From the NCBI RefSeq assembly GCF_005849285.1, contig NZ_CP040517.1:254501-318500 (forward strand): DNA of 64,000 nucleotides, given 5' to 3'. Source of the DNA: Luteithermobacter gelatinilyticus (GTDB lineage: Bacteria; Pseudomonadota; Alphaproteobacteria; Sphingomonadales; Emcibacteraceae). The first letter of the stretch is position 1. Each line of letters starts with the position of its first letter. Below are positions 5,609 through 22,467 of this stretch, one piece after another. A model generated the notes under the pieces. It worked only from the letters and a program-made list of their open reading frames with translations, was not told the origin of the DNA and made no database searches. The position numbers and the translations under genes were made by a program.

Positions 5609-5874
5609 GCAGAACTGTATCCATTACCTTGCAGAATAACGACGACGCCCGCCCGATTATCGAGGCCATTGAAGAGGATAACCCCGACGCCACGGTCAAC
5701 GTTTACCCGGCTATGGTCAAGATCGACTGTGCTGGTCGTCTGATCGTCCGCCAGTCCACGGTGGAGGAAAAACTCGGTCGGGACTGGGATGTACAGGAAC
5801 TTCATCTCAGCGTCATCAGCCTGGCGGGCAATGTGGATGAAGAGGATGAATATCTGGAATTGAGCTGGGGGTAA
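5605..5874 (+). CDS. dmpM: phenol hydroxylase effector/coupling protein P2 (DmpM)
   Basis: 89 residues from the ATG at 5605, which overlaps the dmpL stop. An in-frame TTG at 5590 would add five residues but has no support. It belongs to the MmoB/DmpM family of small cofactor-free proteins that bind the diiron hydroxylase and raise turnover. The sequence begins SRTVSITLQNND and ends acidic (DEEDEYLELSWG), typical of the family. A 63-bp gap precedes dmpN. Confidence 0.92.
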   Translation: MSRTVSITLQNNDDARPIIEAIEEDNPDATVNVYPAMVKIDCAGRLIVRQSTVEEKLGRDWDVQELHLSVISLAGNVDEEDEYLELSWG

Positions 5875-5937
5875 AGCCGTCCAGCCGCCGCCTCACCGGA
5901 AACATGCCGGAGATATAGGGAATTTACGGAGATAAAT

Positions 5938-7461: not shown

Positions 7462-7487
7462 ACGGAACCCGGGACGAGATTTGAACG

Positions 7488-7508
7488 CCGGGGGAAAACA
7501 TCCCCCGG
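7488..7508 (+). other. intercistronic hairpin between dmpN and dmpO
   Basis: Perfect inverted arms CCGGGGG (7488-7494) and CCCCCGG (7502-7508) around a 7-base loop AAAACAT. No U-run follows, so it is not a terminator. It lies 27 bp after the dmpN stop and may act as a 3'-end stabiliser for the dmpK-N part of the transcript. Confidence 0.5.
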
Positions 7509-7532
7509 ATAACCGGAATACAGGAGAGGCTG

Positions 7533-7892
7533 ATGTCTGTGAAAGCCATTGGGACATACGAATTCGAAACACTGGATGGCCAGGAAAAATTCCACGGCAA
7601 TCAACTGGTTTATATCAACTGGGAACGTCATCTGATGTTTTGTTCCCCCGTCTGTCTGCCCTTGCCGCCGGAACTGCCCTTCGGCGCGCTGGTGGATGAG
7701 GTTCTGCCCGGCATATATAGCCAGCATCCGGATTTTGAAAAGATTGACTGGGCAGCGGTGAGCTGGCAGCACAACAATGATCCCTTTACCCCCGATCCGC
7801 AAAAATCGCTGGCAGAAAACGGCATTACCCATAAGGACGTGTTGCGTTTCACGACGCCGGGCCTTGACGGTATAAAAGGGAGCGGTTCCTGA
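7533..7892 (+). CDS. dmpO: phenol hydroxylase gamma subunit P4 (DmpO)
   Basis: 119 residues, the third subunit of the oxygenase component. The N-terminal part (SVKAIGTYEFETLDGQEKFHGN) and the FCSPVCLPLPPELPFGALVDEVLPGIYSQHPDF-type region, split here around a conserved Pro-rich turn, match DmpO/PhlE-type proteins. CAGGAGAGGCTG precedes the ATG. The stop overlaps the ATG of dmpP (TGATG), so the two are translationally coupled. Confidence 0.92.
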   Translation: MSVKAIGTYEFETLDGQEKFHGNQLVYINWERHLMFCSPVCLPLPPELPFGALVDEVLPGIYSQHPDFEKIDWAAVSWQHNNDPFTPDPQKSLAENGITHKDVLRFTTPGLDGIKGSGS

Positions 7893-8953
7893 TGACCTGG
7901 CAGTTGACCATAGAACCCATTGGCGAAGTGGTCGAGGTTGAAGAGGGCCAGACCATTCTGGATGCCTGTCTTCGGGCGGGGATTTATATTCCCTATCAGT
8001 GCAGCCACGGCCTGTGCAGCACCTGCAAGGTGGATGTGCTTGAAGGGGAGGTGAATCTGGGGGAGGCGTCGCCCTTTGCATTGATGGACTTCGAACGGGA
8101 TGAAGGCAAGGCTCTGGCCTGTTGCTGTACCCTGGAAAGTGATGCGGTGATTGAGGCGGATATTGAAGAGGATGAAGACGCCCGTTACCTGCCCATTGGG
8201 GATTATACTGGTACCGTGTCCAGCATTACCGACCTGACGCCGGACATTAAAGGCATCAGGATTGCCCTGGAGGGATCGGGCCTGGAGTTCCAGGCCGGGC
8301 AATATATCCAGCTTGACATTCCGGGGGTTGAGGGGGCGCGGGCGTTCTCGATCGCCAATCCCCCACAGCACAATATGGAAATCGAACTGCATGTGCGTTT
8401 GGTGCCTGCTGGTGCGGGGACCACGTATCTGCATGAGCGTTTGAAAGTCGGCGACCGGCTGACCTTTTCCGGGCCCTATGGGCAGTTTTTTGTCCGCAAG
8501 TCACAGCAAAAACCGATGATTTTCATTGCTGGCGGGTCGGGGCTGTCCAGTCCCAAGTCAATGATCGAGGATGTGCTGGCCGAAGGCACGGATCAGAAAA
8601 TCTACCTGTTTCACGGGGTCAGAGCCAGATGTGATCTGTATTACGAGGCGTATTTCCGGGAATTGGCCCAGCAGCATGACAATTTCACCTATATCCCGGC
8701 ACTTTCGGAAATGGCGCCTGATGATGACTGGCAAGGCGAGACGGGGTTTATCCATGAGGTGGCAGAGCGTTTCTTCGGAGGGGAGTTCAAGGGCCATCAG
8801 GCTTATCTGTGCGGCCCACCGCCGATGATCGAGGCGTCCATTCGTGTGCTGATGAAAGGACGCCTGTTTGAGAAGGATATCTACATGGAAAAGTTTCTGA
8901 CCCGGGAAGACGGGCAGGAAACCAAAAAGTCCCCCTTGTTCAAAAGGATCTGA
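7892..8953 (+). CDS. dmpP: phenol hydroxylase reductase P5 (DmpP)
   Basis: 353 residues in the order plant-type 2Fe-2S ferredoxin (about 1-90; Cys37, Cys42, Cys45 in QCSHGLCSTC, Cys77 in LACCC), FAD domain (about 100-205; RAFSIANPP), NAD domain (about 210-330; AGGSGLSSPKSM, CGPPPM). It carries electrons from NADH through FAD and the cluster to the DmpN diiron site. Length and order are those of known DmpP/MmoC-like reductases, and all cofactor motifs look intact. Confidence 0.94.
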   Translation: MTWQLTIEPIGEVVEVEEGQTILDACLRAGIYIPYQCSHGLCSTCKVDVLEGEVNLGEASPFALMDFERDEGKALACCCTLESDAVIEADIEEDEDARYLPIGDYTGTVSSITDLTPDIKGIRIALEGSGLEFQAGQYIQLDIPGVEGARAFSIANPPQHNMEIELHVRLVPAGAGTTYLHERLKVGDRLTFSGPYGQFFVRKSQQKPMIFIAGGSGLSSPKSMIEDVLAEGTDQKIYLFHGVRARCDLYYEAYFRELAQQHDNFTYIPALSEMAPDDDWQGETGFIHEVAERFFGGEFKGHQAYLCGPPPMIEASIRVLMKGRLFEKDIYMEKFLTREDGQETKKSPLFKRI

Positions 8954-8954
8954 C

Positions 8955-9305
8955 ATGGCGTCCAATGCGGATTTTCAGATTGCTATCGAAGGGGTCAGGG
9001 AAAAAATTCCGTGCCCTCGGGACCGTTCGGTCCTGGTGGCGATGGAGGCCCGGGGGCTGGCCCGCATTCCCGTGGGATGCCGGGGCGGCGGCTGTGGCAT
9101 CTGCAAGATCAGGGTTGTTTCGGGCGATTATCGGACGGGCCGGATGGCCGCCTGTCATGTCACCGAGGAAGAGCGCCGACAGGGTTATGTGCTGGCCTGC
9201 CGGCTTTATCCGAACAGTGATCTGATCATTCGTCTCAGAACCAAGAACCGGGGGGTGATCACCCCGGCGCTGTTAGGGAAACACGGAACAGGGAACGTTA
9301 GCTAA
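8955..9305 (+). CDS. dmpQ: chloroplast-type ferredoxin, catechol dioxygenase reactivation (DmpQ/XylT)
   Basis: 116 residues with 2Fe-2S cysteines in VGCRGGGCGICK and a distal Cys in VLACRLYP. In known meta operons this ferredoxin sits just before the catechol 2,3-dioxygenase and re-reduces the iron of that enzyme when it is oxidised by substituted catechols. The gene starts one base after the dmpP stop and precedes dmpB by 12 bp, which is the expected position. Confidence 0.88.
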   Translation: MASNADFQIAIEGVREKIPCPRDRSVLVAMEARGLARIPVGCRGGGCGICKIRVVSGDYRTGRMAACHVTEEERRQGYVLACRLYPNSDLIIRLRTKNRGVITPALLGKHGTGNVS

Positions 9306-9317: not shown

Positions 9318-10241
9318 ATGGCAATGACGGGAGTTTTACGTCCGGGGTTCGCCCAGATCAGGGTGCTGGACATGGCGGAGGCGCTGGTTCATTACCGGGA
9401 CCGGATCGGTCTTGATGTGGTCAGTACCGGCGAGGATGGCCGGGTGTACCTCAAGGCCTATGATGAATTTGACCGCCACAGTATCGTTTTGCGGGAGGCG
9501 GATACGGCGGGCCTTGACGTGATGGCGTTCAAGGTGGTGGACGAGGCAACGCTGAAGGAACTGGAGCAAAAGCTCACCAACGAAGGCATGGATGTCAGCC
9601 ATATCCCCGCCGGCGAACAACCCGGCGTCGGCCGGCGCATCAGTTTCCGGGCGCCCACCGGGCACCGGTTTGACTTATATGCGGAAATGGAGTTGTCCGA
9701 TAAAGGGCCGATGACCAGCAACCCCGATGTGGTTCAGGAGGACCTGCGGGGCATGAAGGCCATCCGTTTCGACCATTGCCTGCTGTATGGCGGGGATATC
9801 GACGGCACCAAACGGGTCTTTGAAAACGCCCTCGGGTTCAGGATGTCGGAATGTGTACGGGACGAGAATGGTATGCTGATTGCCATATTTCTGACCTGTA
9901 GCACCAAAGCCCATGACCTGGCGCTGGTGCGCCATGAGGAGGACGGCAAACTGCACCATGTTTCTTTCCTAGTGGAAGACTGGACCGCCCTCAGGGATGC
10001 GGCCGACATTATGACCCGATATGACATTTCCGTGGATATCGGTCCGACCCGTCACGGCATCACCCGCGGCCAGACCATTTATTTCTTTGATCCCAGCGGC
10101 AATCGTAACGAGGTGTTCGCCGGCGGATATGACTATTATCCCGACAATCCGCTCCGGGAATGGAAACTCGATGAAGTCGGCAAGGCGATTTTCTATTACG
10201 AACGCCAGTTGAACGATCGCTTTATGACAGTAGTTACCTAA
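9318..10241 (+). CDS. dmpB: catechol 2,3-dioxygenase (extradiol, type I)
   Basis: 307 residues of the two-domain vicinal oxygen chelate family. The Fe(II) ligands fall exactly at the numbering known for XylE: His153 (RFDHC), His214 (KLHHVSF) and Glu265 (GNRNEVF). It opens catechol next to the hydroxyl pair to give 2-hydroxymuconic semialdehyde. AAAGGAGAACAGAA is a strong ribosome site. A large hairpin follows 19 bp after the stop. Confidence 0.96.
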   Translation: MAMTGVLRPGFAQIRVLDMAEALVHYRDRIGLDVVSTGEDGRVYLKAYDEFDRHSIVLREADTAGLDVMAFKVVDEATLKELEQKLTNEGMDVSHIPAGEQPGVGRRISFRAPTGHRFDLYAEMELSDKGPMTSNPDVVQEDLRGMKAIRFDHCLLYGGDIDGTKRVFENALGFRMSECVRDENGMLIAIFLTCSTKAHDLALVRHEEDGKLHHVSFLVEDWTALRDAADIMTRYDISVDIGPTRHGITRGQTIYFFDPSGNRNEVFAGGYDYYPDNPLREWKLDEVGKAIFYYERQLNDRFMTVVT

Positions 10242-10260
10242 AAATCGTCTGACTACAGCG

Positions 10261-10311
10261 GGCTGGTTTCCGGCCGCAGGCCCAGGCCGGGCCGGAGACC
10301 AGCCAACTTTT
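10261..10311 (+). other. large intra-operon hairpin after dmpB (attenuator or processing site)
   Basis: Fifteen-bp arms GGCTGGTTTCCGGCC (10261-10275) and GGCCGGAGACCAGCC (10290-10304) pair with one G-U. The 14-base loop is GC-rich and the hairpin is followed by AACTTTTT. It looks like an intrinsic terminator with a short weak T-tract, but it sits inside an operon whose downstream genes complete the pathway. Partial termination or a 3' stability element for dmpB mRNA are both possible. Confidence 0.6.
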
Positions 10312-10343
10312 TGAACAACAACCCCATATTACAGGAACAAGCC

Positions 10344-11825
10344 ATGTCTTATAAAGCCATGTCACATAGGGACGTTCTGCATTTTATCAATGGCGAATAT
10401 ACCCCTGGGACCTCCGGCCTGACATTTGAGAATATCTGCCCGGTGGACGGGCAGGTGATCGGCCGGGTGCATGAAGGCAAGCGGGATGAAGTGGATGCGG
10501 CGGTACAGGCGGCTCGAGCGGCGCTTAAGGGGCCGTGGGGACGCATGAGCATGGCGGAGCGGGGAGAGATTCTGCACCGGGTGGCGGATGGAATCACGGC
10601 CCGGTTTGACGAATTTCTTGAGGCCGAGTGCCTGGATACCGGCAAACCGCGCAGCTTGGCCAGCCATATCGACATTCCCCGCGGGGCAGCCAATTTCAAG
10701 ATTTTTGCCGATCTGGTGAAAAATGTGCCGGAGGAAAGTTTTCATCTGGCGACCCCGGACGGCGCCGGCGCCCAGAATTATGGCATCCGGGTGCCAAAAG
10801 GCGTGATCGGGGTGATTTCACCCTGGAATTTGCCGCTGTTGCTGATGACCTGGAAGGTGGGGCCGGCACTGGCCTGCGGCAATACGGTGGTGGTCAAACC
10901 TTCCGAGGAAACGCCGCTGACCACGGCGCTTCTTGGGGAGGTGATGAATGACGCCGGAGTCCCCAAGGGGGTTTATAACGTGGTGCACGGGTTTGGCCCG
11001 GACAGTGCCGGCGCGTATCTGACGGAGCATCCCGGTGTGGACGCCATCACTTTTACCGGCGAGACCCGGACCGGCACGGCCATTATGAAAGCAGCGGCAG
11101 TAGGTGTGCGTGACGTGTCCTTTGAACTGGGCGGCAAGAACCCGGCCATTGTGTTTGCGGACTGTGATCTGGACAAGGCGATTGAGGGGACCATGCGGTC
11201 GGTATTTGCCAATTGTGGCCAAGTCTGTCTGGGTACCGAACGGGTTTTTGTGGAACGCCCGATTTTTGATGAATTTGTGGCCCGCCTCAGGCAGGGGGCC
11301 GAAGGTCTGAAACTGGGGCGTCCTGAAGATGAAACGGTGAATATGGGGCCGTTGATCAGTAAGGAACATCAAAAGAAAGTGTTGGGATATTACGATCTGG
11401 CCCGCGAGCTCGGGGCGACGGTGGTGACCGGCGGCGGTGTGCCGGACATGCCCGAAGATCTGCGCGGCGGGGCCTGGGTGGAGCCCACCATCTGGACCGG
11501 TCTTGGTGATGACAGCCCGATCATGAAGGAAGAAATTTTCGGCCCCTGCTGCCATATCAGCCCGTTCGATAGTGAAGAGGAAGTCATCGAACGCGCCAAT
11601 GACACGGTTTATGGCCTGGCGTCGGCGGTATGGACCGAAAATATGTCCCGCGGCCATCGGGTGGCGGCGCAGATCGAGTGTGGGATTTGTTGGGTCAATA
11701 GCTGGTTCCTGCGGGATCTGAGGACCGCTTTCGGCGGCAGCAAGCAATCCGGGATCGGTCGTGAGGGCGGGGTGCACAGTCTGGAATTCTATACCGAACT
11801 GAGAAACATTTGTGTGAAGCTTTGA
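10344..11825 (+). CDS. dmpC: 2-hydroxymuconic semialdehyde dehydrogenase (DmpC/XylG)
   Basis: 493 residues from the ATG at 10344 (ACAGGAACAAGCC upstream). A TTG at 10311 in frame is rejected because it falls in the hairpin tail. Aldehyde dehydrogenase superfamily: SPWNLPLLLMTWKVGPAL, catalytic Glu in FELGGKNP, catalytic Cys in FANCGQVCLG. It oxidises 2-hydroxymuconic semialdehyde with NAD+ to 2-hydroxymuconate (4-oxalocrotonate enol). With no dmpD visible, this dehydrogenative branch appears to be the only route encoded in the operon. Confidence 0.93.
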   Translation: MSYKAMSHRDVLHFINGEYTPGTSGLTFENICPVDGQVIGRVHEGKRDEVDAAVQAARAALKGPWGRMSMAERGEILHRVADGITARFDEFLEAECLDTGKPRSLASHIDIPRGAANFKIFADLVKNVPEESFHLATPDGAGAQNYGIRVPKGVIGVISPWNLPLLLMTWKVGPALACGNTVVVKPSEETPLTTALLGEVMNDAGVPKGVYNVVHGFGPDSAGAYLTEHPGVDAITFTGETRTGTAIMKAAAVGVRDVSFELGGKNPAIVFADCDLDKAIEGTMRSVFANCGQVCLGTERVFVERPIFDEFVARLRQGAEGLKLGRPEDETVNMGPLISKEHQKKVLGYYDLARELGATVVTGGGVPDMPEDLRGGAWVEPTIWTGLGDDSPIMKEEIFGPCCHISPFDSEEEVIERANDTVYGLASAVWTENMSRGHRVAAQIECGICWVNSWFLRDLRTAFGGSKQSGIGREGGVHSLEFYTELRNICVKL

Positions 11826-11832
11826 GGATAAC

Positions 11833-12627
11833 ATGACAGTGGAAACAGAAGAGATTGAATGCGCAGCGGCGCAGTTGCGTTCGGCGCAGGCGTCGGGCAC
11901 ACCCTGTGCGCCCTTGCGGGACTATGTTGCGGCGGATGATATTGACGCGGGCTATGCGATTCAGGACCTCAACACGGAACATGCCTTGGCGCAGGGGCGG
12001 CGTCTGGTGGGCCGCAAGATCGGGCTCACGTCACGGGCGGTGCAGGGACAGCTGGGCGTGAGCCAGCCGGATTTCGGCATGTTGTTTGAGGATATGGCTT
12101 ATGCGGACGGCGAAGAGGTGCCGCTCAGCCGGCTGTTGCAGCCCAAAGTGGAGGGAGAGGTGGCCTTTGTTCTCAACAAGGATCTTGCGGGGGAAGCACT
12201 GACCCTGGCGGACGTAATCGGCGCCATTGATTACGCCCTGCCGGCGCTCGAGATTGTCGACAGCCGCATTGCGGACTGGAAAATCAGCATTGCCGACACG
12301 GTGGCGGATAATGCCTCTTCGGGGCTGTATGTACTGGGGTCCCGCCCGGTGAGGTTAGGTGATTTTGACCATCGCCTGTGTGGCATGGTGATCGAACATC
12401 AGGGGGAGCCGCTATCTACCGGGGCGGGACTGGCATGTCTGGGCAATCCGCTCAACGCCACGCTGTGGCTCGCCCGGGAAATGGTCAGGCGGGATCGCCC
12501 GCTTCAGGAAGGGGACACGGTGCTGTCGGGGGCGCTGGGTCCTATGGTCACCGTATCGGGACCGGGGGTGTATGAGCTGCGCATCTCGGGACTGGGAACG
12601 GTACAGGCAAGATTTACACAGGATTAG
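11833..12627 (+). CDS. dmpE: 2-hydroxypenta-2,4-dienoate hydratase (DmpE/MhpD)
   Basis: 264 residues of the fumarylacetoacetase-like hydratase/decarboxylase family. It shows the metal-site glutamates in the pattern PKVEGEVAF and LEIVDSRI, and the VADNASS motif shared with DmpH. It adds water to 2-hydroxypentadienoate to give 4-hydroxy-2-oxovalerate. DmpE and DmpH are paralogues that act as a complex in known systems. I assign E here because of position before dmpF and closer similarity to MhpD. Seven bp separate it from dmpC. Confidence 0.87.
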   Translation: MTVETEEIECAAAQLRSAQASGTPCAPLRDYVAADDIDAGYAIQDLNTEHALAQGRRLVGRKIGLTSRAVQGQLGVSQPDFGMLFEDMAYADGEEVPLSRLLQPKVEGEVAFVLNKDLAGEALTLADVIGAIDYALPALEIVDSRIADWKISIADTVADNASSGLYVLGSRPVRLGDFDHRLCGMVIEHQGEPLSTGAGLACLGNPLNATLWLAREMVRRDRPLQEGDTVLSGALGPMVTVSGPGVYELRISGLGTVQARFTQD

Positions 12628-12633
12628 ACTGTC

Positions 12634-13569
12634 ATGAACAAGATCAAATGTGCCATTATCGGTTCGGGCAATATCGGGACCGATCTGATGATCAAGATAA
12701 TACGGACCAGTTCGGTTCTGGAAATGGGGGCCATGGTGGGGGTGGACCCGGCCTCGGACGGGCTCGCCCGGGCCGTGCGTCTGGGGGTGCCGGTGACGTC
12801 TGAGGGCATCGAGGGGCTGATGCGGATGCCTGAATGGGCGGACATCCGCATTGTGTTTGATGCCACTTCGGCCTACGCGCATCAGAAGCATGACGAAATC
12901 TGCCGGGCGGCGGGTAAGGTTCTGGTGGATCTGACCCCGGCGGCGATCGGCCCTTATACGGTGCCGGTGGTGAATATGGAGGCGCATCTGGACGAACCCA
13001 ATGTGAATATGGTGACCTGCGGTGGTCAGGCGACCATTCCCATTGTGGCAGCGGTGGCCCAGGTGGCGCCGGTGCATTATGCCGAGATTGTGGCTTCGGT
13101 CTCATCCCGGTCGGCGGGACCGGGCACGCGCGCCAATATTGACGAATTCACCCAGACCACGGCCCGCGCCATCGAGGTTGTGGGCGGGGCGAAACGCGGC
13201 AAGGCAATCATCATTCTCAACCCGGCGGAACCGCCCATGATCATGCGCGATACGGTGTTTACCCTGTCCGATATGGCGGAGGAAGCGGCGGTGGAAGCCG
13301 CGGTTGAAAAAATGGTTCGGCAGGTGCAGTCCTATGTGCCGGGTTATCGGCTGAAGCAGAAGGTGCAGTTTGAACGTTTCGGGTCCAACAATCCGCTGAA
13401 AATACCGGGATATGGGGAATTTGAAGGGCTCAAGACGTCGGTGTTTCTGGAAGTGGAGGGCGCGGCCCATTATCTGCCAGCTTATGCGGGCAATCTTGAT
13501 ATTATGACCTCGGCGGCCCTGGGCACCGGGGAGCGTATCGCCCGGCGTAAATTCGCCGTGGCGGCCTGA
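12634..13569 (+). CDS. dmpF: acetaldehyde dehydrogenase (acylating) (DmpF/MhpF)
   Basis: 311 residues with an N-terminal Rossmann motif ([11 protein letters not shown]) and the catalytic Cys129 in [12 protein letters not shown]. It converts acetaldehyde, NAD+ and CoA to acetyl-CoA. In known enzymes acetaldehyde is channelled from the aldolase DmpG through a protein tunnel. dmpG follows after 10 bp with a GAGGAGAAC ribosome site, consistent with that complex. Confidence 0.94.
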
Positions 13570-13579
13570 GGAGAACATC

Positions 13580-14626
13580 ATGACGAAAAACAACACTGCG
13601 GTGCCGCCCAAACTCTATATTCAGGATGTGACCCTGCGCGACGGCATGCACGCCATCCGCCATATGTATGGTCTGGACCATGTGCGCCAGATTGCCAAAG
13701 CCCTGGACGAGGCCGGGGTAGACGCCATTGAGGTGGCGCATGGGGACGGTTTGGCCGGGTCCAGTTTTAATTACGGTTTCGGGGCCCACACCGATTGGGA
13801 GTGGCTGGAGGCGGTGGCCGAGGTTTTGCAACGAGCCACCCTGACCACCTTGTTGCTGCCGGGGATTGGTACCGTCAATGAACTGCGCCGGGCCTATGAT
13901 CTGGGGGTGCGTTCGGTGCGCATTGCCACTCATTGCACCGAGGCAGATGTGTCAAAACAGCATATCGAAATGGCCCGTGAGATGGGTATGGATACGGTCG
14001 GTTTTCTGATGATGAGCCATATGATCGAGCCGGCAAAGCTGGCCGAACAGGCGCAACTGATGGAAAGCTACGGCGCGACCACCATCTATGTGGTGGATTC
14101 GGGCGGGGCGCAGAACATGGATGATGTGGCGGCGCGCATGCAGGCCTTTGAGGCGGTGCTGAAGCCCGAAACCCAACGCGGCATCCATGCCCATCATAAT
14201 CTCAGCCTCGGGGTGGCCAATTCCATTGTGGCCGTCCAGAACGGCGCGGTACGGGTGGATGCGTCGTTGGCCGGCATGGGGGCCGGAGCCGGCAATGCGC
14301 CGCTGGAAGTGTTTATTGCTGCCGCCGATCGCTTGGGCTGGGATCATGGCTGTGACCTGTTCAAGCTCATGGATGCGGCGGAAGATCTGGTGCGTCCCCT
14401 GCAAGACCGGCCAGTGCGGGTCGATCGGGAAACGCTCAGCCTCGGTTATGCCGGGGTTTACTCTTCTTTCTTGCGCCATGCTGAGACGGCGGCGGAAACC
14501 TATGGTCTGGACGTGCGTGAAATCCTGGTGGAACTGGGCCGGCGCAAGATGGTGGGCGGTCAGGAAGACATGATCATTGATGTTGCCCTCGATATTCTCA
14601 AGGACAAAGAAAAGGAGAGTGCCTGA
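13580..14626 (+). CDS. dmpG: 4-hydroxy-2-oxovalerate aldolase (DmpG/MhpE)
   Basis: 348 residues of the HMG-CoA-lyase-like TIM-barrel family. The N-terminal motif [11 protein letters not shown] holds the Arg/Asp/His set (Asp21, His24), and [11 protein letters not shown] holds the two metal-binding histidines. The C-terminal communication domain expected for binding DmpF is present. It splits 4-hydroxy-2-oxovalerate into pyruvate and acetaldehyde. The stop overlaps the dmpH ATG (TGATG). Confidence 0.95.
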
Positions 14627-15399
14627 TGGCCGATCTGGAGGAAATTGCGAAAATTGTTGATGATGCCGCGCGTTATGCGACGGCGATCCCTCAACTGTCT
14701 GAGACCGGTTATGATCTTACTCTGGAAGAGGCTTATGAGGTGCAGGCCCTGTCCCTTGCCCGACGTTATGAGCGCGGCGAGCATCAGGTGGGGGTCAAGA
14801 TGGGTTTTACCAGCCGCGCCAAAATGGTGCAGATGGGGCTGGAGGAGATGATCTGGGGCCGTCTGACCAATACCATGCTCATAGAGGATGGCGGGGAGAT
14901 CGACCTTGCGGACTATGTGCATCCCCGGGTTGAGCCGGAAGTCTGTTTTCTGCTGAAGAGGCCGCTGGAAGGTATTGTCAGCCCGGCGCAGGCGCTTGAG
15001 GCCGTGGAAGCCGTGGCGCCGGCATTGGAAATCATTGACAGCCGGTATGAAAATTTCAAGTTCAATCTGCCGGATGTGGTAGCGGACAATACTTCGACAT
15101 CGAGTTATGTAGTGGGCCCCTGGTGCCGTCCGGATCTGGAAATTGACAATCTTGGTATGGTGATGACCTTTGACGGTGAGCCGGTTCAGATCGGATCCAG
15201 CGCCGCCGTGCTGGGACATCCGGCGCGGGCCCTGGCCGGGGCGGCGCGTCTGGTGGCGGAAGCCGGCGGGCGGCTGGAAGCGGGTTGGGTAGTCATGGCT
15301 GGCGGGGCCACCGCGGCCGAGGCGTTGACCCCCGGCGTGCGGGTACGGTTGGAGGCCGAAAAAATGGGCCGGGTCAACTTTTCGGTGAAAGCAGCATAG
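14626..15399 (+). CDS. dmpH: 4-oxalocrotonate decarboxylase (DmpH)
   Basis: 257 residues, paralogue of DmpE (FAH-like hydratase/decarboxylase family) with GVKMGFTSRAKMVQMG, RVEPEVCF, LEIIDSRYENF and VVADNTSTSSYV. It decarboxylates the keto form of 4-oxalocrotonate to 2-hydroxypentadienoate, the DmpE substrate. It is the last gene of the operon. Usually the tautomerase dmpI follows, but here the next gene is convergent and only 25 bp remain. No clear terminator is visible in that gap. Confidence 0.9.
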   Translation: MADLEEIAKIVDDAARYATAIPQLSETGYDLTLEEAYEVQALSLARRYERGEHQVGVKMGFTSRAKMVQMGLEEMIWGRLTNTMLIEDGGEIDLADYVHPRVEPEVCFLLKRPLEGIVSPAQALEAVEAVAPALEIIDSRYENFKFNLPDVVADNTSTSSYVVGPWCRPDLEIDNLGMVMTFDGEPVQIGSSAAVLGHPARALAGAARLVAEAGGRLEAGWVVMAGGATAAEALTPGVRVRLEAEKMGRVNFSVKAA

Positions 15400-15424: not shown

Positions 15425-16225
15425 TCAGGTGCCGACCCTGAGCGGCGCGACAAGCCCCCGCAAGGCGGCGATGACGCTTAACGCCGTGATCTTGCCGGTA
15501 CCGGGATTCTCTTCGGTCGGGATATTCTCGATGGTCAGTTCAAACCGGGCGCTGTCCGCATCCACAAAAATAGTGTGGGTGTTGCGATCTTTTGTGGGGT
15601 CGGCCCAGATTTCCAGATAGGTTTTGTCCGGCCCCACGCCCGCCAACCCGAGGGCGGCGGCCACATTCACATTGGAGGGAAATTTTTGCGCGCCGTCGCG
15701 GGCGGTGCCGGAAAAAATGCGCAACGGTTCATCAAGCGTGGCAATATTAATGTTGTTTTTGACAATATAGTCCGCGCCGGCCAGGGACTTTGGCGGTTTG
15801 CGGGTAACCATGCGGACGGAATGAATGGTGCCTTCGGCAGCCGCTCTGACGGCGTCCAGCCCCAAAAGCGCGCCGGTGGCCAAAATGATTTTGCCGCCAT
15901 TATCCCGGGCCAGGTCGATAACCTCGGGATGAGCCAGCACTGCCGCCCCGCTTACCGTGACGAGGGTTTTTCCGGCTTTCAGGGCCGGGCCGGCGATGTC
16001 CATAAAAACAGCCGTCGGGGCACATTCTACAATGATGTCCGCCATTTCGGCCATTTCTTTGGCCGAAACAACAGGCACCGGGGTGGTGAAGTCTGCCATT
16101 GTTGCAAGGGCCTTTCCCGGGGTGCGGGTGCAGACCCCGACAAGTGTGAGATGTTCCACGCCCTGGTCTAGGGCCCTGCCCACCGCCTTTCCGATGGTGC
16201 CAAATCCGGCTATTCCGACTTTCAT
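15425..16225 (-). CDS. L-aspartate dehydrogenase-like NAD(P)-dependent oxidoreductase
   Basis: 266 residues from the ATG at 16225. A longer frame to 16339 adds 38 residues unlike the family and is rejected. The Rossmann motif KVGIAGFGTIGKAVGRAL opens the protein. A C-terminal DUF108-type catalytic domain includes the segment FPSNVNVAAALGLAG and a conserved His in NTHTIFVDADSA. Characterised relatives convert aspartate to iminoaspartate/oxaloacetate and ammonia, feeding NAD synthesis. No nadA or nadC lies here. The gene is convergent with the phenol operon and divergent from the TauE permease. Its link to aromatic degradation is unproven. Confidence 0.78.
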   Translation of the reverse strand: MKVGIAGFGTIGKAVGRALDQGVEHLTLVGVCTRTPGKALATMADFTTPVPVVSAKEMAEMADIIVECAPTAVFMDIAGPALKAGKTLVTVSGAAVLAHPEVIDLARDNGGKIILATGALLGLDAVRAAAEGTIHSVRMVTRKPPKSLAGADYIVKNNINIATLDEPLRIFSGTARDGAQKFPSNVNVAAALGLAGVGPDKTYLEIWADPTKDRNTHTIFVDADSARFELTIENIPTEENPGTGKITALSVIAALRGLVAPLRVGT

Positions 16226-16329
16226 GAGTCCGCTCTTCGTAAAGTTCAAGATGAAGGCAGGGGCCGTAAACAGTTCCGAATGACCCTTGCCGGCGTATGA
16301 TTCTTTTTTATAAATACAAAAATATTTAA

Positions 16330-16339
16330 TTGTGCACAA
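16330..16339. promoter_or_regulatory. candidate GntR (FCD subfamily) operator
   Basis: TTGTGCACAA is a perfect 10-bp palindrome inside AATTGTGCACAAATT, about 105 bp upstream of the aspartate-dehydrogenase-like start. FCD-type GntR proteins typically bind TTGT-N2-ACAA-like sites, and such a regulator is encoded at 17583-18239. A similar half-conserved sequence CAGTATACAAA (18392-18402) lies upstream of that regulator. The assignment is inferred. Confidence 0.4.
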
Positions 16340-16484
16340 ATTAAAAAGAATGTACTTTGAAAAAATACTCTGATAAAGATGTCAGGAAATTATGCATGGG
16401 AAAGCCGGAAAATACGTAAAAAATATACGAATAAAACGATGCGGAAAGAAAAACACTGATGCCGGCCAACTTATATGAAGTTCA

Positions 16485-16496
16485 CATCACGTGATG
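16485..16496. promoter_or_regulatory. 12-bp perfect palindrome CATCACGTGATG upstream of the TauE/SafE gene
   Basis: Perfect two-fold symmetry, 27 bp before the chosen start codon of the permease. The position would overlap the promoter or leader, so a repressor site is possible. No regulator can be assigned from sequence. Confidence 0.35.
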
Positions 16497-16522
16497 ATGT
16501 TATTAGATCGTTAGGAAGAAGA

Positions 16523-17347
16523 ATGGAACTATGGTCTGACTTGCTGCCTCTGGTGGGTATGATGCTGGCGACGGGACTTGTCGGGGGAATTCTGGCCGGT
16601 CTTTTGGGGGTCGGGGGCGGTATTGTGATTGTCCCGGTTCTGGAATTGGCTTTGGGCATTTTGGGGGTTGACCCCTCGATCCGGATGCATATTGCCGTGG
16701 CCACCTCCTTATCTACCATTATTCCCACCTCTATTTCATCTTCCCGCGCCCATAAAAAGAAAAATTCGGTTGATACCGCCCTGGTCAGAAAGTGGGGGGG
16801 CTATGTGTTTCTGGGGGCGGCGTTGGGAAGCTGGCTGGCGGCACAGGTGGACAGTGTTGTTCTGGCAGGGATTTTTGCCACCGTGGCGTTGCTGGTGGCG
16901 TTGAAGATGTTATTACCTTTGGGGAACTGGACCATTGCCCGGGATGTGCCCAAGGGCGGTGCGTCCTATCTGGTGCCGACCGGAATTGGTACTGTGTCAA
17001 GCATGATGGGAATTGGCGGAGGAACCCTGAGCGTGCCGGTGCTCACGCTGTTGAACCAGCCGATTCACCGGGCGGTGGGATCTGCGGCACTTTTTGGCTT
17101 GTTGATCAGCATTCCTGGCACCGTTGGTTTTATGATCAGCGGATATGGCGTGCCCGGGCTGCCGCTGGGCAGCATCGGCTATGTCAATCTTCTGGGATTT
17201 ATCATTATTTCCCCGGCCACCATTCTGGCCGCCCCTTGGGGAGCGTGGATTGCTCACAGCCTCAGCCAGCGTCATCTGAGTATGCTGTTCGGGTTTTTCC
17301 TGCTGATCGTTTCGGCAAGAATGTTTTATCGCACGCTGATGGGGTAA
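16523..17347 (+). CDS. TauE/SafE family (DUF81) anion permease
   Basis: 274 residues from the ATG at 16523, chosen for the AGGAAGAAGA ribosome site. An upstream ATG at 16475 lies before the palindrome and has none. Eight or so hydrophobic segments; two glycine-rich repeats typical of the family are visible (GGILAGLLGVGGGIVIVPVL near residue 24 and SMMGIGGGTLSVPVL near residue 155). It is an inner-membrane protein. Known members export sulfite, sulfoacetate or related anions. Here the substrate is unknown. It is divergent from the aspartate-dehydrogenase-like gene and converges on the GntR gene. Confidence 0.85.
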   Translation: MELWSDLLPLVGMMLATGLVGGILAGLLGVGGGIVIVPVLELALGILGVDPSIRMHIAVATSLSTIIPTSISSSRAHKKKNSVDTALVRKWGGYVFLGAALGSWLAAQVDSVVLAGIFATVALLVALKMLLPLGNWTIARDVPKGGASYLVPTGIGTVSSMMGIGGGTLSVPVLTLLNQPIHRAVGSAALFGLLISIPGTVGFMISGYGVPGLPLGSIGYVNLLGFIIISPATILAAPWGAWIAHSLSQRHLSMLFGFFLLIVSARMFYRTLMG

Positions 17348-17556: not shown

Positions 17557-17583
17557 ATCCCGGTCCCGGTTGTGGGCCGGGAT
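17557..17583 (-). terminator. hairpin at the 3' end of the GntR gene
   Basis: Arms ATCCCGGTCC (17557-17566) and GGGCCGGGAT (17574-17583) pair with one G-U. It directly abuts the GntR stop codon. No U-run follows on either strand, so it is a weak terminator or RNA-stability hairpin. Confidence 0.45.
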
Positions 17584-18239
17584 CACGCCCCGGATTTGGA
17601 CTTGTTGAGATATTCCATGGCGTTCACGCTGGAATTGGCGACATGGTTGTGCATCGCTTCAAAGGCCCGGTTCATATCTGCCGCTAGGATGGCGTCCACA
17701 ATGTCCCGGTGTTCCTGATAGGAGGCTTTCATCCGGTCCCGCACCTTGAAAAACACGCTGCGACGGAAGGGCGCCAGGCGATGCCAGAGATTGGAGGCCA
17801 TGCCCGTCAGGCTTTCATTGTGGCAGCCCCGATAAATCATGGCATGAAATTCCGCATTGATTGAAGAATAGGTTTTTTCGTCATTCCTTTTCAGTGCCTT
17901 GTCAAATTCCTCCAAAAAGCCTTCCAGTTTTTTGCGTTCAAGTGTGCTCATCCGCAACGCCGAGAATTTGGCACAAAGGGCTTCCAGCTCCACCAACGCC
18001 TCAAACATATCAGTAAGCTGGTCAATATTCAGGTCGACGACAGTAACCCCCTTGCGGGGTTTGATTTCAACCAGACCGGTTGAGGCCAACTGCCGTAGCG
18101 CATCCCGCACGGGGGTGCGGGAGACAGAAAACTGGTTCGCCAGACTTTGTTCCTCGATTTTCTGGCCGGGGGCCAACGTGCCGGAAAGAATTTGTTCCGC
18201 AAGCTGCTGGCAAATGGTTTCCGATATGGTTAAATTCAT
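17583..18239 (-). CDS. GntR family transcriptional regulator, FCD subfamily
   Basis: 218 residues. The N-terminal winged helix reads ICQQLAEQILSGTLAPGQKIEEQSL and VSRTPVRDALRQL, the classical GntR recognition region (about 8-70). The C-terminal FCD domain (about 80-205) has the expected metal/ligand His and Asp/Glu positions (for example EFHAMIYRGCHN and YQEHRDIVDAI). FCD regulators bind small organic acids and control nearby catabolic genes. The neighbours are the permease, the aspartate-dehydrogenase-like gene and the reductive dehalogenase. Which of these it controls is not shown. Confidence 0.88.
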   Translation of the reverse strand: MNLTISETICQQLAEQILSGTLAPGQKIEEQSLANQFSVSRTPVRDALRQLASTGLVEIKPRKGVTVVDLNIDQLTDMFEALVELEALCAKFSALRMSTLERKKLEGFLEEFDKALKRNDEKTYSSINAEFHAMIYRGCHNESLTGMASNLWHRLAPFRRSVFFKVRDRMKASYQEHRDIVDAILAADMNRAFEAMHNHVANSSVNAMEYLNKSKSGA

Positions 18240-18561: not shown

Positions 18562-18564
18562 CTA
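18541..18564. repeat. dispersed palindrome family, copy 1 (one arm), supplies the rdhA stop codon
   Basis: CAATTCACTCTA at 18553-18564 is the full right arm of the family. The preceding GGTCAATCTATTCA corresponds to the loop of the copy at 32822. The left arm has decayed. On the minus strand the arm reads TAGAGTGAATTG, and its first three bases are the rdhA stop codon. Confidence 0.65.
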
Positions 18565-21500
18565 GAGATCAATCTCGATCACCCCGCCTTCCTGCTTCGC
18601 CCGAGAGGAACATAGAATGATATGGGTTGCGCGTTCTTTGGCGGAAAGGACAAAATCCCGGTGTTCCACCTCGCCGGAAACCAGGCCGCATTTACAGACG
18701 CCGCATATACCGTCGGAACATTTCATCGGCACATGAATCCCCTGTTCGGCCAGCACGTCTGTAATGCGTTTTTCCGCCGGGACCGGGATGTCGCGCCCGG
18801 ACCGGACAAGACGAACCGTAAAGCGGTGATTGACATAATCGCCCGTTTCAGGCACGGAAAAATATTCCTTGTGAAGGGCGTCTTCGGGCCAGCCCAGTGC
18901 AGAGGCGGTGTCCAGCACGGCGTTCATATACCGATCCGGGCCGCAGGTATAAAGATGAAATCCTTCCTCATAACCCTCAAGCAATTTGTCCAGGTCCGCG
19001 CGGCTGCCCTCATCCGAAAAATGCAGATGTACCCGGTCCGCCCAAGGCACCGTGGCAAGATCGGACAGAAAAGCGGCGCTCTGGCGCGAGGCGCAGGAAT
19101 AATGCAGGGTGAACGCTGCGCCCAAGGCATGAAGCCGATAGGCCATGGCCATCAGCGGCGTGATGCCGATTCCGCCGGCCATCAGCAGGCTTTTCTGGGC
19201 GTCCTCCTGGAGCGGAAAATGATTGACCGGCCGGGTGATGAAGACCTTGCGGCCTTCTGTGAAAATGCGATGCAGCAGCTGGGAGCCGCCGGTGCCGCTC
19301 TCCTCGCGCAATACGGCGATGCGATATTTTGAGCGGTCCGCCGGATCGCCCGCCAGGGAATAGGACCGGATGAATTCGGGGGCCACGACCACATCCACAT
19401 GAGCCCCCGCCTCAAAAGCCGGCAGCGATGCCCCATTCAGGGAGGTGAGATCATAGCTGATGATATCTGCTGTCTCTCGTTTGACCTTGGCCACTTTGAC
19501 CCGCAAGACGGGAGGGGGCCCTGGCGGTAATTTGTATTCATGGGCAAGCCCATCCACCTTGCCGTGGCGCAGCCGGTCCCGGTAGGTTTCGGGAGACAAC
19601 AGGTCCCGATATGCCTGAATACCTTTTTCCCTGTTCATGGGAAAGGTATAGGGCCAGGGTGGCGGGGCCAGATTGGCCGGATAGACGGCCAGGGTCTGGT
19701 CTTCGAATTTCAGGTCCAGATCCGGTTGCAGATCGCGTTTATTCACCTCATGTCGGCTGGGGGCGTAGGGACCTTCGTCTTCCATTTCCAGGTCCCACCA
19801 CCATTTTTTGACCGGGTTAAGACGGCCGCGGCCTAATGTGTCATCAAGGCGGGCCAGGGTCTTGGCAAGAACCGGGACATGGCTGGCGAGCCAGCGAAAG
19901 GGGGCTTCCGCAAACAAACCTTCCAGATTCCATGGACAGGTTTTCATGCAGCGCCCGCACATGGCGCCATTCGGCTGACCGACGCGATACTGGGTGCAGC
20001 GCTGGCTGTCGGATTTCCAGATCTCGTAGCCATTGAACATTTTTTTCGGGCCGGCCGTGATGGCGCCGGACGGGCATTCTCGGGCGCATTTGTTGCAGTT
20101 GTTGCAGAAATTCTGTAACCCGAAGTCAATCGGCTTGTCATGTTTGAGGGGCATATCCGTGGTAATCACGCCGGATTTGAGGCGGGGGCCCAGAAACGGA
20201 TTGAGGATCACTTCGCCAATGCGGCTGACTTCCCCCAGGCCGGACAACAGCAGCAACGGCGGTTGCAATACCTCGCCATCCATTACCGAATGCACCCGAG
20301 CGGAATAGCCCAGGGCGCGAATCTGGTTGGCGATCACCCCGCCCAGCAGGGAAAACCGCAAATAGGCCCGCATGGATTGGGAACAGGCAATCCAGTCGTC
20401 TCCCGATGCGCCGTCCATGGTTTCGTGCCCCTGATCAATGATGACGGAAATGGCGTTTTGGTGATAGGGCGTGATGGGCTCTCCCAGTGCATTGTGACTG
20501 TAATAAACCCAGTCCGGACAGCGCGACAGACCCACCGCATCAGCCCCGAGGAAATACAGGGCCGCCTTAAGGTTCAGGCTGTTTTGTTCCGGCGAACGGG
20601 CTGTTTCAGAAATCGTCTCCGCCCTGGGGCCGTCCTGCAACAGGACAAAAGCCGCCAGCGCCCGCCGGGCAGCAAAGGAAATCGGGCTTTTGCGCACATA
20701 ATTGCCGTTCTTGGCTTTTTCCTGAAGCGTTTTGCCCATATCGCCAAACAGGGCGCGGGCGAACATGTCGGTTCTTTTGGGTACCCGGGGCACGCGGGCT
20801 TCGTCAATAAAGGTGGTGGGGGTTTCGACGCGGTTAATTTTTTCAAAAGGATGTTGTCCGTCGGCAAAGCGGCGCCGGGCAAAGGCCTCCCGATTAAAGG
20901 CATTTTTGGCAAATCCCTTGCCCACCCACCAGGCGGGGCCGTGACTGTGCCAGCGATTCCACATGTTACGCGGGGCCAGGGGCCGGTCCGGGCTTATATC
21001 CAGTGTGGTGGTGACGGCGGCAATGCCAAACCGCCGGCCCAGATAGGGGTTTTCGATACAGGGACCATCAGGACTGTGCACCACGTCGCCAAGTCCGGCG
21101 GCGATAACCAGTTTGTTGAGATCCACATCGGAAGCCGATCCGGTATGTCCCCGGGCTTCCCAACCCAGCAGCCGAATATAGTTGGACAGGACAATGGCGG
21201 TTTCTGCACCCCTGAGTGCGGCCCGCTGGGGCTGAGCCTCCCGGATCCAGGCCGTTCCTGGCTCATTTGGGGCCGGGTCACGGGGATATTCATACAGAAA
21301 AACCAGCGCATGAGTATGATGGGAAATGTCACGGGGCGGGGCTTCCATCGTTTCGCGCAATTCAGCCATCACCACGTCGATGCCGGAAGCCAGGGTTTCG
21401 GTCTGTCTTGTTTTCAGGTCCTCGGCAAGTTTGTCGACCCCCGGATTGACGAGAGGTTCTTCCAGAAACATGTCAGGCGTCAGCCGGCAGATTCCCACCT

Positions 21501-21792
21501 GGCTTGCGTCACAATAATAGCCGAAAGCCTTGAGATGGGCGGCGCGTTCCTCAAGGTCGTCTGGAATGACGGCGCGTTCTTTTTTCACCAGGCCGTCGCG
21601 AATGGCATCCATCATGGCCTGATAGTCCCGCATGGCGTTGACCAGGCTCAGGGGGTCTTCCTGGCGGACAAAGGAGACCGGCACCATGGGCGGCACGGCG
21701 GACAGGTCGGGGAGCCCGGAGGTTCGCTTCAGGCGTTCCAGCGGATAGGGGCCCAGATGAACCGGCCGATCTTTATAGGAAAAAAAGCGCAT
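18562..21792 (-). CDS. rdhA: self-sufficient reductive dehalogenase fused to a ferredoxin-NAD(P)H reductase module
   Basis: 1076 residues. Residues about 85-270 and 400-550 look like two copies of one cobalamin-type (nitroreductase-like) domain, as known for catabolic dehalogenases where only the second binds B12. Two cluster motifs follow: Cys563/566/569/573 (CNNCNKCARECP) and Cys599/612/615/619 (CGRCMKTCP). Residues about 760-1076 form a reductase: RSYSLAGD (flavin), GGIGITP and CGPDRYM (NAD(P)H), then plant-type 2Fe-2S with Cys1025/1030/1033/1061. There is no twin-arginine signal, so it is cytoplasmic. The layout matches BhbA, which removes bromine from a dibromo-hydroxybenzoate with NADPH. 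An ortho-halophenol substrate is inferred. Other cobamide oxidoreductase activity cannot be excluded. Confidence 0.87.
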   Translation of the reverse strand: MRFFSYKDRPVHLGPYPLERLKRTSGLPDLSAVPPMVPVSFVRQEDPLSLVNAMRDYQAMMDAIRDGLVKKERAVIPDDLEERAAHLKAFGYYCDASQVGICRLTPDMFLEEPLVNPGVDKLAEDLKTRQTETLASGIDVVMAELRETMEAPPRDISHHTHALVFLYEYPRDPAPNEPGTAWIREAQPQRAALRGAETAIVLSNYIRLLGWEARGHTGSASDVDLNKLVIAAGLGDVVHSPDGPCIENPYLGRRFGIAAVTTTLDISPDRPLAPRNMWNRWHSHGPAWWVGKGFAKNAFNREAFARRRFADGQHPFEKINRVETPTTFIDEARVPRVPKRTDMFARALFGDMGKTLQEKAKNGNYVRKSPISFAARRALAAFVLLQDGPRAETISETARSPEQNSLNLKAALYFLGADAVGLSRCPDWVYYSHNALGEPITPYHQNAISVIIDQGHETMDGASGDDWIACSQSMRAYLRFSLLGGVIANQIRALGYSARVHSVMDGEVLQPPLLLLSGLGEVSRIGEVILNPFLGPRLKSGVITTDMPLKHDKPIDFGLQNFCNNCNKCARECPSGAITAGPKKMFNGYEIWKSDSQRCTQYRVGQPNGAMCGRCMKTCPWNLEGLFAEAPFRWLASHVPVLAKTLARLDDTLGRGRLNPVKKWWWDLEMEDEGPYAPSRHEVNKRDLQPDLDLKFEDQTLAVYPANLAPPPWPYTFPMNREKGIQAYRDLLSPETYRDRLRHGKVDGLAHEYKLPPGPPPVLRVKVAKVKRETADIISYDLTSLNGASLPAFEAGAHVDVVVAPEFIRSYSLAGDPADRSKYRIAVLREESGTGGSQLLHRIFTEGRKVFITRPVNHFPLQEDAQKSLLMAGGIGITPLMAMAYRLHALGAAFTLHYSCASRQSAAFLSDLATVPWADRVHLHFSDEGSRADLDKLLEGYEEGFHLYTCGPDRYMNAVLDTASALGWPEDALHKEYFSVPETGDYVNHRFTVRLVRSGRDIPVPAEKRITDVLAEQGIHVPMKCSDGICGVCKCGLVSGEVEHRDFVLSAKERATHIILCSSRAKQEGGVIEIDL

Positions 21793-21948: not shown

Positions 21949-21990
21949 AGATTCTGGGGATCAGATTCTTGGGATCAGATTCTGGGAATC
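21949..21990. repeat. three 14-bp tandem units spanning the marR stop codon
   Basis: AGATTCTGGGGATC (21949-21962), AGATTCTTGGGATC (21963-21976) and AGATTCTGGGAATC (21977-21990). The marR stop lies at the junction of units two and three, so unit three encodes the protein's last residues (IPRI) and the other two follow it. Confidence 0.75.
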
Positions 21991-22430
21991 GCCGTATCTT
22001 CTCCCTCCATCAGTTTGTCAATCAGCCGGTAGAATTCGGCCAGTTCCTGTTTGGTGAGTTTGGATTCGAAATGCCGTGCGGTGGCGGCCGCATGTCTTTT
22101 AACCTTTTGCAGGATGGATTGGCCTTTATCGGTCAGCTCAATACAGGTGGCTCGCCCGTCTCCGCTATGGGGTTTTTTGATGATCAGCTTATCTTTTTCC
22201 ATATCCCGCAACAGGCGGGAAATTATGGATTTCTCCACCCCCAGATAAGCGGCGATGGCAGAAGGAAAAACGATCTGTTCCAGGCCCACAGCGCACAACA
22301 CGCACCAGGTCAGTCGGGAAATGCCGATGGGAGAGATGGCTTCCTCGAAATGTTTTTCATTGATACGGGACAGCCGCGACAGGCGGTATCCGTAACTTTC
22401 ATGAAGACGATATGAGATGTCCTGTGTCAT
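21975..22430 (-). CDS. MarR family transcriptional regulator
   Basis: 151 residues with the family's winged-helix order. GISRLTWCVLCAVG opens the DNA-binding core, AAYLGVEKSIISRLLRDMEKDKLIIKKP (given in two halves in the protein around residue 65-90) is the recognition helix and wing start, and GDGRATCIELTDKGQ the wing. Helices at both ends would form the dimer interface. It lies directly upstream of rdhA in the same direction (182 bp gap), and MarR proteins are known regulators of reductive dehalogenase genes elsewhere. Control of rdhA and of itself is inferred. There is no ribosome site before the ATG and the promoter lies so close that the mRNA may be leaderless. Confidence 0.85.
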   Translation of the reverse strand: MTQDISYRLHESYGYRLSRLSRINEKHFEEAISPIGISRLTWCVLCAVGLEQIVFPSAIAAYLGVEKSIISRLLRDMEKDKLIIKKPHSGDGRATCIELTDKGQSILQKVKRHAAATARHFESKLTKQELAEFYRLIDKLMEGEDTAIPRI

Positions 22431-22433: not shown

Positions 22434-22467
22434 TTGACAATGTAAACTATATAGTTATCATTGTCAA
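22434..22467. promoter_or_regulatory. 34-bp palindrome with two overlapping divergent promoters (marR / araC)
   Basis: TTGACAATGTAAACTAT (22434-22450) is followed without gap by ATAGTTATCATTGTCAA (22451-22467). The arms are inverted copies differing at two positions. Rightward, TTGACA at 22434 and TATCAT at 22456 are spaced 16 bp, a near-consensus sigma-70 promoter toward araC. Leftward, TTGACA (complement of 22462-22467) and TACATT are spaced 17 bp toward marR, placing the transcript start about at the marR ATG (22430). Such a site is the expected autorepression target of MarR. Confidence 0.65.

Follow-up and report, generated by a model that had tools for sequence, protein, structure and literature searches.

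A predicted self-sufficient reductive dehalogenase encoded near phenol-degradation genes in Luteithermobacter gelatinilyticus

A stretch of 64,000 nucleotides of the Luteithermobacter gelatinilyticus genome (contig NZ_CP040517.1, positions 254,501 to 318,500), referred to below as the window, contains a reductive dehalogenase (RDase) gene, rdhA, at 18562..21792 on the minus strand, close to genes for phenol degradation. RDases of this type remove halogens with the power of ordinary NAD(P)H. The question raised by this locus is whether the rdhA product (RdhA) is an intact RDase fused to its own NAD(P)H reductase, as claimed in an original prediction from the sequence alone, and whether it serves the phenol route encoded nearby. 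The rdhA open reading frame starts with ATG and runs uninterrupted for 1076 codons. Its product of 1076 aa scores 211.2 bits with the NCBIfam reductive dehalogenase model TIGR02486 (cut-off 160.35) and is also matched by the Fer4_7 and Fer2 models. In a phmmer comparison with solved structures, NpRdhA from Nitratireductor pacificus (PDB 4ras) is matched by residues 1-107 and 158-743 (E 4.8e-166) and phthalate dioxygenase reductase (PDR; 2pia) by residues 761-1071 (E 1.9e-64). The RdhA part, with a duplicated cobalamin-type domain and two Fe4S4 clusters, spans residues about 1-743, and the PDR-type flavin/NAD/2Fe-2S part spans residues about 761-1076. The AlphaFold2 model of RdhA has a mean predicted local distance difference test score (pLDDT) of 75.3 and a predicted template modelling score (pTM) of 0.73, and the top 14 Foldseek matches of this model are all NpRdhA chains, with target template modelling scores (TMt) of 0.85-0.87. 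The duplicated (vestigial) N-terminal cobalamin-type domain, which had been predicted, is recognized by the alignment and fold match to NpRdhA, which has such a domain. The pLDDT is below 50 around residues 340-353, 458-465, 467-469 and 515-526, and these stretches touch the pocket; therefore, no pocket geometry is drawn from the model. Family models, structure matches, alignment and the tree described below confirm the prediction, as far as the sequence can tell, that rdhA is an intact gene for a catabolic RDase fused to a PDR module.

The aligned set of fused proteins, with which RdhA was compared, consists of 92 rows: the proteins of the 80 best loci, six further relatives, five plasmid records and the window. 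Four rows contain X letters, and the L055 and G028 rows represent the same protein. RdhA and NpRdhA share 260 identical residues among 574 aligned residues (45%). According to the available part of PMC7565698, from which the roles of the NpRdhA active-site residues are taken, Tyr426, Lys488 and Arg552 are catalytic residues, and Ser422 and Met423 contact the substrate. These residues correspond to Tyr477, Lys539, Arg603, Ser473 and Met474 of RdhA respectively, and all five are invariant in the 92 fused proteins, as is Phe344, which corresponds to Phe291 of NpRdhA. The active-site Tyr/Lys/Arg triad, for which the prediction had proposed an alignment check, is thus kept. The eight Fe4S4 cysteines, at residues 563, 566, 569 and 573 and at residues 599, 612, 615 and 619, are located where they had been predicted and are likewise invariant (92/92). 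Among the 2Fe-2S cysteines, Cys1025, Cys1030 and Cys1061 are present in all 92 proteins, and at the fourth position, 1033, 90 proteins have Cys and the other two have X. Other pocket positions are changed from NpRdhA to RdhA: Phe290 to Met343, Ala419 to Cys470 and, in a loosely aligned stretch, Lys307 to Ala360, Phe310 to Tyr365 and Pro311 to Val366.

Neither a Tat (twin-arginine translocation) signal nor a membrane span is detected by simple measures, because RdhA has no RR pair within residues 1-60 and its Kyte-Doolittle hydropathy does not exceed 1.37 in any stretch of 19 residues. The genes that adjoin rdhA on its own strand encode a MarR-type and a GntR-type protein, and not an RdhB-type anchor. 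Given the lack of a Tat-like start and these neighbours, the respiratory RdhAB class was rejected. As had been proposed, RdhA is predicted to be a cytoplasmic enzyme that carries an NAD(P)H reductase of its own, and these results support this assignment. A recent foreign insertion of rdhA was also considered and gave no sign: its GC content at third codon positions (GC3), 0.67, is within the range of 14 other genes (0.59-0.69). An older transfer may remain compatible with this result.

A scan of genome contigs yielded at least 573 relatives among 595 pattern-matched stretches, of which the best 80 were retained. These 80 are all full-length fused proteins that are 60-69% identical to RdhA, and by title they are mostly from Rhodobacterales and Hyphomicrobiales. 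Many of their genera are known as marine. Because at least 573 relatives were found, the enzyme type is not rare, and the prediction is not upheld on this point. According to the part of PMC10463259 that compares these enzymes, catabolic RdhAs mostly carry a reductase. RdhA is, by its sequence, a member of an already known and widespread enzyme type.

In a quick tree of the catalytic core (102 rows, several long branches flagged), the 92 fused proteins form one clade with a Shimodaira-Hasegawa-like approximate likelihood ratio test (SH-aLRT) support of 100. This clade is composed of a bhb clade of five rows (BhbA, Nitratireductor OM-1, G015, G021 and G096; support 96) and the clade of the window with 87 rows (support 99). 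The shortest tree paths to RdhA are those of L016 and L017 (gammaproteobacterial metagenome-assembled genomes by title), G002, L018 and L019. Pocket position 470 is Val in 77 rows of the tree, Cys in nine (window, L016-L019, L055, G002, G008 and G028), Gly in nine, Ala in four and Ser in three, and Phe is present at position 343 in all five bhb-clade rows; the bhb clade also differs from RdhA at positions 365 and 470. This distribution indicates that the make-up of the pocket largely tracks the clade. BhbA from Comamonas sp. 7D-2 (plasmid pBHB, L104) has the same fused architecture as RdhA, is 50% identical to it and is encoded near ring-cleavage genes. However, it belongs to a different clade of the fused proteins, has Phe, Ser and Ser at positions 343, 365 and 470, where RdhA has Met, Tyr and Cys, and is encoded next to ligAB for hydroxybenzoate instead of dmp genes. 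NpRdhA (PDB 4ras and 6zxu-6zy1) has the 45% identity, catalytic residues and duplicated domain in common with RdhA, but it has no reductase domain and uses separate ferredoxins, as stated in the available part of PMC10463259, whereas RdhA is fused. The architecture, which had been likened to both BhbA and NpRdhA, is therefore that of BhbA but not that of NpRdhA. It is also that of JtRdhA from Jhaorihella thermophila which, compared by its description in part of PMC10463259, shows the same fusion, lacks a Tat signal and has the same Tyr/Lys/Arg; that part does not mention a phenol operon, unlike the neighbourhood in the window.

Compact RDases of about 450 aa were observed in eight genomes of genus g5, which belongs to the family of the window (L126-L133, from G011, G027, G006, G021, G004, G015, G019 and G025). 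In these proteins, an NpRdhA-like N-terminal stretch joins the catalytic core directly, without a vestigial domain and without a reductase, and the pocket motif QSMRAY is replaced by QSYRAY (QSFRSY in L132). In one example (L130:656-2008), a LigB-type extradiol dioxygenase gene (PF02900, 136.6 bits) ends directly ahead of the RDase gene. Judged by where its motifs lie, the Roseobacter RDase Ros_A3X954 likewise appears to be a single-domain, Tat-less protein, although with different Fe-S motifs. Selenocysteine in related RDases was considered and rejected: three short homologues carry a '2 TGA' flag, and the TGAs precede the start Met.

These results lead us to propose that RdhA quite probably acts as an ortho-bromo- or iodophenol dehalogenase. 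As judged from the homologues NpRdhA and JtRdhA, the flavin of the C-terminal module would be reduced by NAD(P)H and would hand on single electrons, first to the plant-type 2Fe-2S cluster, then to the two Fe4S4 clusters and finally to base-off cob(II)alamin. Ser473, Lys539 and Arg603 would grip the phenol hydroxyl and place the ortho halogen at the cobalt, and the carbon-halogen bond would be cleaved by reduction with Tyr477 donating a proton, to give phenol and halide. Ortho-bromo- or iodophenols that perhaps lack a carboxylate would be the likely substrates. For JtRdhA, the available part of PMC10463259 describes an electron chain of NADPH, FMN, 2Fe-2S, two Fe4S4 and cobalamin and the reduction of ortho-bromo- and iodophenols; the chlorinated ones tested were inhibitory, with no activity measured. 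Oxygen tolerance is also reported there for JtRdhA. In contrast, Ros_A3X954, the Tat-less RDase of a marine Roseobacter, loses its activity in oxygen, as stated in part of PMC13101508. The oxygen tolerance that had been attributed to this enzyme type can therefore not be generalized, and for RdhA it is inferred by analogy. The supply of cobalamin is probable, because the genome encodes CobN, through which alone de novo synthesis was probed, and contains two cobalamin riboswitches, one of which is directly followed by a gene for a BtuB-like receptor. This receptor scores 278.7 bits with the B12-receptor model, under the cut-off of 599.7, and ranks first among the 53 places in the genome where this model matches TonB receptors.

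The gene for the MarR-family regulator is located directly upstream of rdhA in the same direction (21975..22430, minus strand), with a gap of 182 bp. A 34-bp inverted repeat at 22434..22467, identified by its symmetry, lies three bases before the marR start codon and is a probable MarR operator. It has the form TTGACAATG-16-CATTGTCAA, with exact 9-bp arms and an exact inner 12-bp AACTATATAGTT, and 30 of its 34 positions are symmetric. With up to three mismatches allowed, it is found at one site in the 3.1-Mb genome, and 0.02 sites are expected in the window. MarR proteins act as negative regulators of RDase genes in Dehalococcoides, according to the available part of PMC6299228. MarR is likely a local regulator of rdhA: bound to the repeat before its own gene, it would probably repress the marR-rdhA unit until a phenolic ligand arrives. 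Seven of the 80 best loci and two plasmids, those of Aminobacter and Jannaschia, encode a MarR relative (33-44% identical) no further than about 1.2 kb from rdhA, on the strand opposite to rdhA in L081 and Jannaschia, and L011 encodes a 30% identical relative beside an unfused rdhA. Related half-sites are seen by eye before marR in L107, L040, L058, L090, L091 and L095, and none is seen in L030, L108, L081 and L011. A shared MarR operator or regulon was nevertheless rejected. The half-site pattern derived from marR-bearing loci occurs with up to three mismatches in five of 107 rdhA upstream regions, some of which are duplicate cuts of one locus, as compared with a mean of 2.8 and a maximum of 6 in shuffles, and it occurs with up to two mismatches in none of the 107. 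The window contains 12 half-site matches against 2.5 expected, three of them within the repeat and the other nine with three mismatches; the matches at 8868, 10384 and 13204 (three mismatches) fall in dmp coding sequence and are not used as evidence.

The phenol route is encoded on the plus strand. A Dmp-type multicomponent phenol hydroxylase is encoded at 4305..9305 by dmpK (4305-4583), dmpL (4595-5608), dmpM (5605-5874), dmpN (5938-7461), dmpO (7533-7892), dmpP (7892-8953) and a gene for a dmpQ-like ferredoxin (8955-9305). The meta-cleavage genes that follow at 9318..15399 encode catechol 2,3-dioxygenase (9318-10241), 2-hydroxymuconic semialdehyde dehydrogenase (10311-11825), a hydratase-like protein (11833-12627), acetaldehyde dehydrogenase (12634-13569), 4-hydroxy-2-oxovalerate aldolase (13580-14626) and a decarboxylase-like protein (14626-15399). 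The closest known system is the Dmp phenol/meta-cleavage operon of the Pseudomonas CF600 type. The window has K, L, M, N, O, P, Q-like, B, C, E, F, G and H in a row, but its E and H proteins are below the NCBIfam cut-offs and are named by best match. The search for Dmp-route genes covered the route apart from dmpI, dmpD and a DmpR-type regulator. If the dehalogenase supplies phenol to this route, which we infer from position and regard as possible but somewhat doubtful, the product would be consumed by the neighbouring enzymes, and removal of the ortho halogen before hydroxylation would prevent a 3-halocatechol from meeting catechol 2,3-dioxygenase. Reports of Bartels in 1984 and Klecka in 1981 are said, by their titles, to concern the inactivation of catechol 2,3-dioxygenase by 3-halocatechols. 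This guard step is conditional, because various catechol 2,3-dioxygenases reportedly convert 3-chlorocatechol (a title of Mars in 1999).

The end of the dmp operon (15399) and the end of rdhA are separated by 3.2 kb. The chance that a single random gene lies that near dmp is about 0.2%, as reckoned after the fact. PF04663 (dmpO) is detected above its cut-off in 13 of 99 related genomes, the genome of the window included in both numbers. In the other 12, the hydroxylase genes recur, and the meta-cleavage genes follow wholly or partly in ten; they are absent beside the hydroxylase in G003 (L138), and the contig ends first in G014 (L143). Fused rdhA, scored by our own classification with contig-end fragments counted as present, occurs in 5/13 genomes with PF04663 and in 6/86 without it (p 0.005), or in 4/12 and 6/86 when the genome of the window is excluded (p 0.019). 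Several results weigh against a functional link, however. rdhA and dmp are convergent on opposite strands with three genes between them, and the 34-bp repeat is not found at dmp, so that no common control is established. Within the family, fused rdhA occurs in 5/11 genomes with PF04663 and 5/21 without it (p 0.20), and kinship may therefore account for the co-occurrence. Among the other 12 PF04663 genomes, no RDase-core match (E 1e-40) is found in five (G012, G014, G018, G026 and G044), and the RDase is clearly away from dmp in five more. In G008, G028 and G001, it is on another, long contig, or the long contig of dmp is without one; in G003, 101 kb of one contig separate it from dmp; and in G010, the dmp contig has no RDase match and extends about 5.4 kb past dmpH, which excludes the spacing of the window there. 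The contigs of the remaining two (G022 and G051) are too short to place the RDase relative to dmp. Fusion to a reductase is absent from the RDases of G001, G003 and G051. At the class level, PF04663 is present in 10/385 genomes, including that of the window, and one of the other nine (G099) has an RDase core. G099 is an alphaproteobacterium of another family, with RDase-core matches on C24 and C110 and a phenol hydroxylase component on C93.

A set of 103 loci, consisting of the 80 best loci and further relatives, some cut twice, was probed with the genes of the window, and no phenol hydroxylase gene is within reach in any of them (0/103); one member of this set is L001, a short cut of the window itself that ends before dmp. 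Both 10-kb flanks are complete in 54 of the 80 best loci and shortened in 26. The weak matches to dmpB, dmpC, dmpE, dmpH and dmpP (23-42%) near rdhA loci are general family members. An analogy in favour of a link is offered by two of five plasmid records, in which a fused rdhA has ring-cleavage neighbours of another kind: ligAB in Comamonas pBHB, and pobA plus a gene for a class III extradiol dioxygenase in Nitratireductor OM-1. The incomplete feature tables of the other three list no ring-cleavage genes beside rdhA. In the listed titles and abstract openings of the literature, mostly other than subscription papers, no rdhA adjoining a phenol hydroxylase operon is reported. The location of rdhA beside a phenol route is thus unusual and is found only in the genome of the window among the genomes examined. 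Because it is seen in one genome and on opposite strands, the proximity is suggestive and not proof of a pathway: it hints at a complete route for the use of brominated phenols but does not establish one.

RdhA may perform the same chemistry on another halogenated phenolic compound, such as a bromo- or iodo-hydroxybenzoate, a hydroxyphenylacetate or a halotyrosine breakdown product, with the closeness to dmp being accidental. The separation of RDase and dmp in the five genomes that clearly hold both apart and the absence of phenol hydroxylase genes from all other rdhA loci examined favour this explanation, as does the preference of JtRdhA for bromo-hydroxybenzoate and -hydroxyphenylacetate: it is best on dibromo-hydroxybenzoate and acts on 2,6-dibromophenol at 6.8% of that rate, according to the available part of PMC10463259. 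A preference of RdhA for non-carboxylates is therefore unproven. However, no pob, lig or hpa gene is present among the annotated neighbours of rdhA in the window, and Lys307 of NpRdhA, which forms a salt bridge to the substrate carboxylate at the pocket entrance (PMC7565698, in the part that describes the active site), reads Ala360 in RdhA, where the alignment at 360-366 adjoins a gap and is hence loose. We consider this explanation only slightly less probable than its contrary. More tentatively, the window may hold a single functional island for aerobic mineralization of ortho-halophenols. Such an island would have been assembled in this lineage and would be for phenol what the bhb cluster is for hydroxybenzoate.

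It is unlikely, if conceivable, that RdhA serves detoxification instead of catabolism by stripping halogens from natural bromophenols, for which ring cleavage nearby is unnecessary. Such a role would explain the wide spread of the enzyme without ring-cleavage neighbours: by the comparison with window genes, even a distant catechol-2,3-dioxygenase-like neighbour (25-26%) is seen in only two of the 80 best loci (L020 and L023). Phenolic toxicants are often the signals of MarR regulators, which also counts for this role. On the other hand, other ring-cleavage pathways would escape a comparison that uses only the genes of the window, 26 of the 80 loci are shortened, and the bhb-type relatives are plainly catabolic. 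That RdhA is not a dehalogenase at all is very improbable. RDases and epoxyqueuosine reductase (QueG) form one cobalamin enzyme class, as noted in part of PMC10463259, and a cobalamin/Fe-S reductase of the QueG branch or one with a non-halogenated substrate was therefore considered. The QueG model TIGR00276 does give 25.9 bits, but its cut-off is 200, whereas the RDase model is passed (211 against 160), and the 45% identity to NpRdhA includes the catalytic and substrate-hydroxyl residues. The kinship to QueG that was to be checked is thereby dismissed. The explanation that we prefer, a cytoplasmic self-sufficient RDase with the cycle inferred above and under the control of MarR, is probable overall.

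Other genes of the window complete the context. A block of DUF1302, DUF1329, DsbA-like and glutathione S-transferase (GST) genes (14..4141, plus strand) precedes the hydroxylase, as it does in several relatives: among the other 12 PF04663 genomes, it is complete in six, partial in three and cut in the remainder. An aspartate dehydrogenase-like gene (15425..16339, minus strand) is located between dmpH and the gene for a TauE/SafE-family permease (16475..17347, plus strand), and a gene for a GntR regulator with an FCD domain (17583..18239, minus strand) is located downstream of rdhA. In G015 (L100), a TauE relative (64% identical) is encoded at a distance of about 5.6 kb from rdhA. The GntR matches near eight other rdhA loci are weak (26-32%), and no conserved tie of this gene to rdhA is seen. 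A bhb-type cluster, with a 4-hydroxybenzoate hydroxylase or protocatechuate 4,5-dioxygenase gene beside the RDase gene, was rejected, because the neighbours are dmp, tauE, gntR, marR, araC and a TonB receptor gene. The prediction was right in that the TauE and FCD-GntR neighbours differ from the bhb locus, but it missed the more telling ones, the phenol meta-cleavage operon and marR. The 34-bp repeat is located between marR and a divergent AraC-family gene (22412-23701, 429 aa), the true start of which is probably further in, because the listed start at 22412 overlaps marR. The GC3 of this gene is 0.50, as compared with 0.59-0.69 for the other genes measured. A TonB-dependent receptor of the siderophore-receptor type (below cut-off) is encoded near it at 24057-26297. 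A styrene-monooxygenase-like flavoprotein (Smoa_sbd; StyA model below cut-off) and an AndR-like AraC regulator (below cut-off), encoded at 28892-30226 and 30305-31330 on the minus strand, possibly represent a second aromatic-oxidation locus. A scan of the window with Rfam gives no match.

If the proposed route is true, it would reveal how natural bromophenols can serve bacteria as food and would provide a ready-made module for the clean-up of brominated phenols. The arrangement also offers an idea of why ortho-specific reductive removal of halogens may be paired with meta cleavage.

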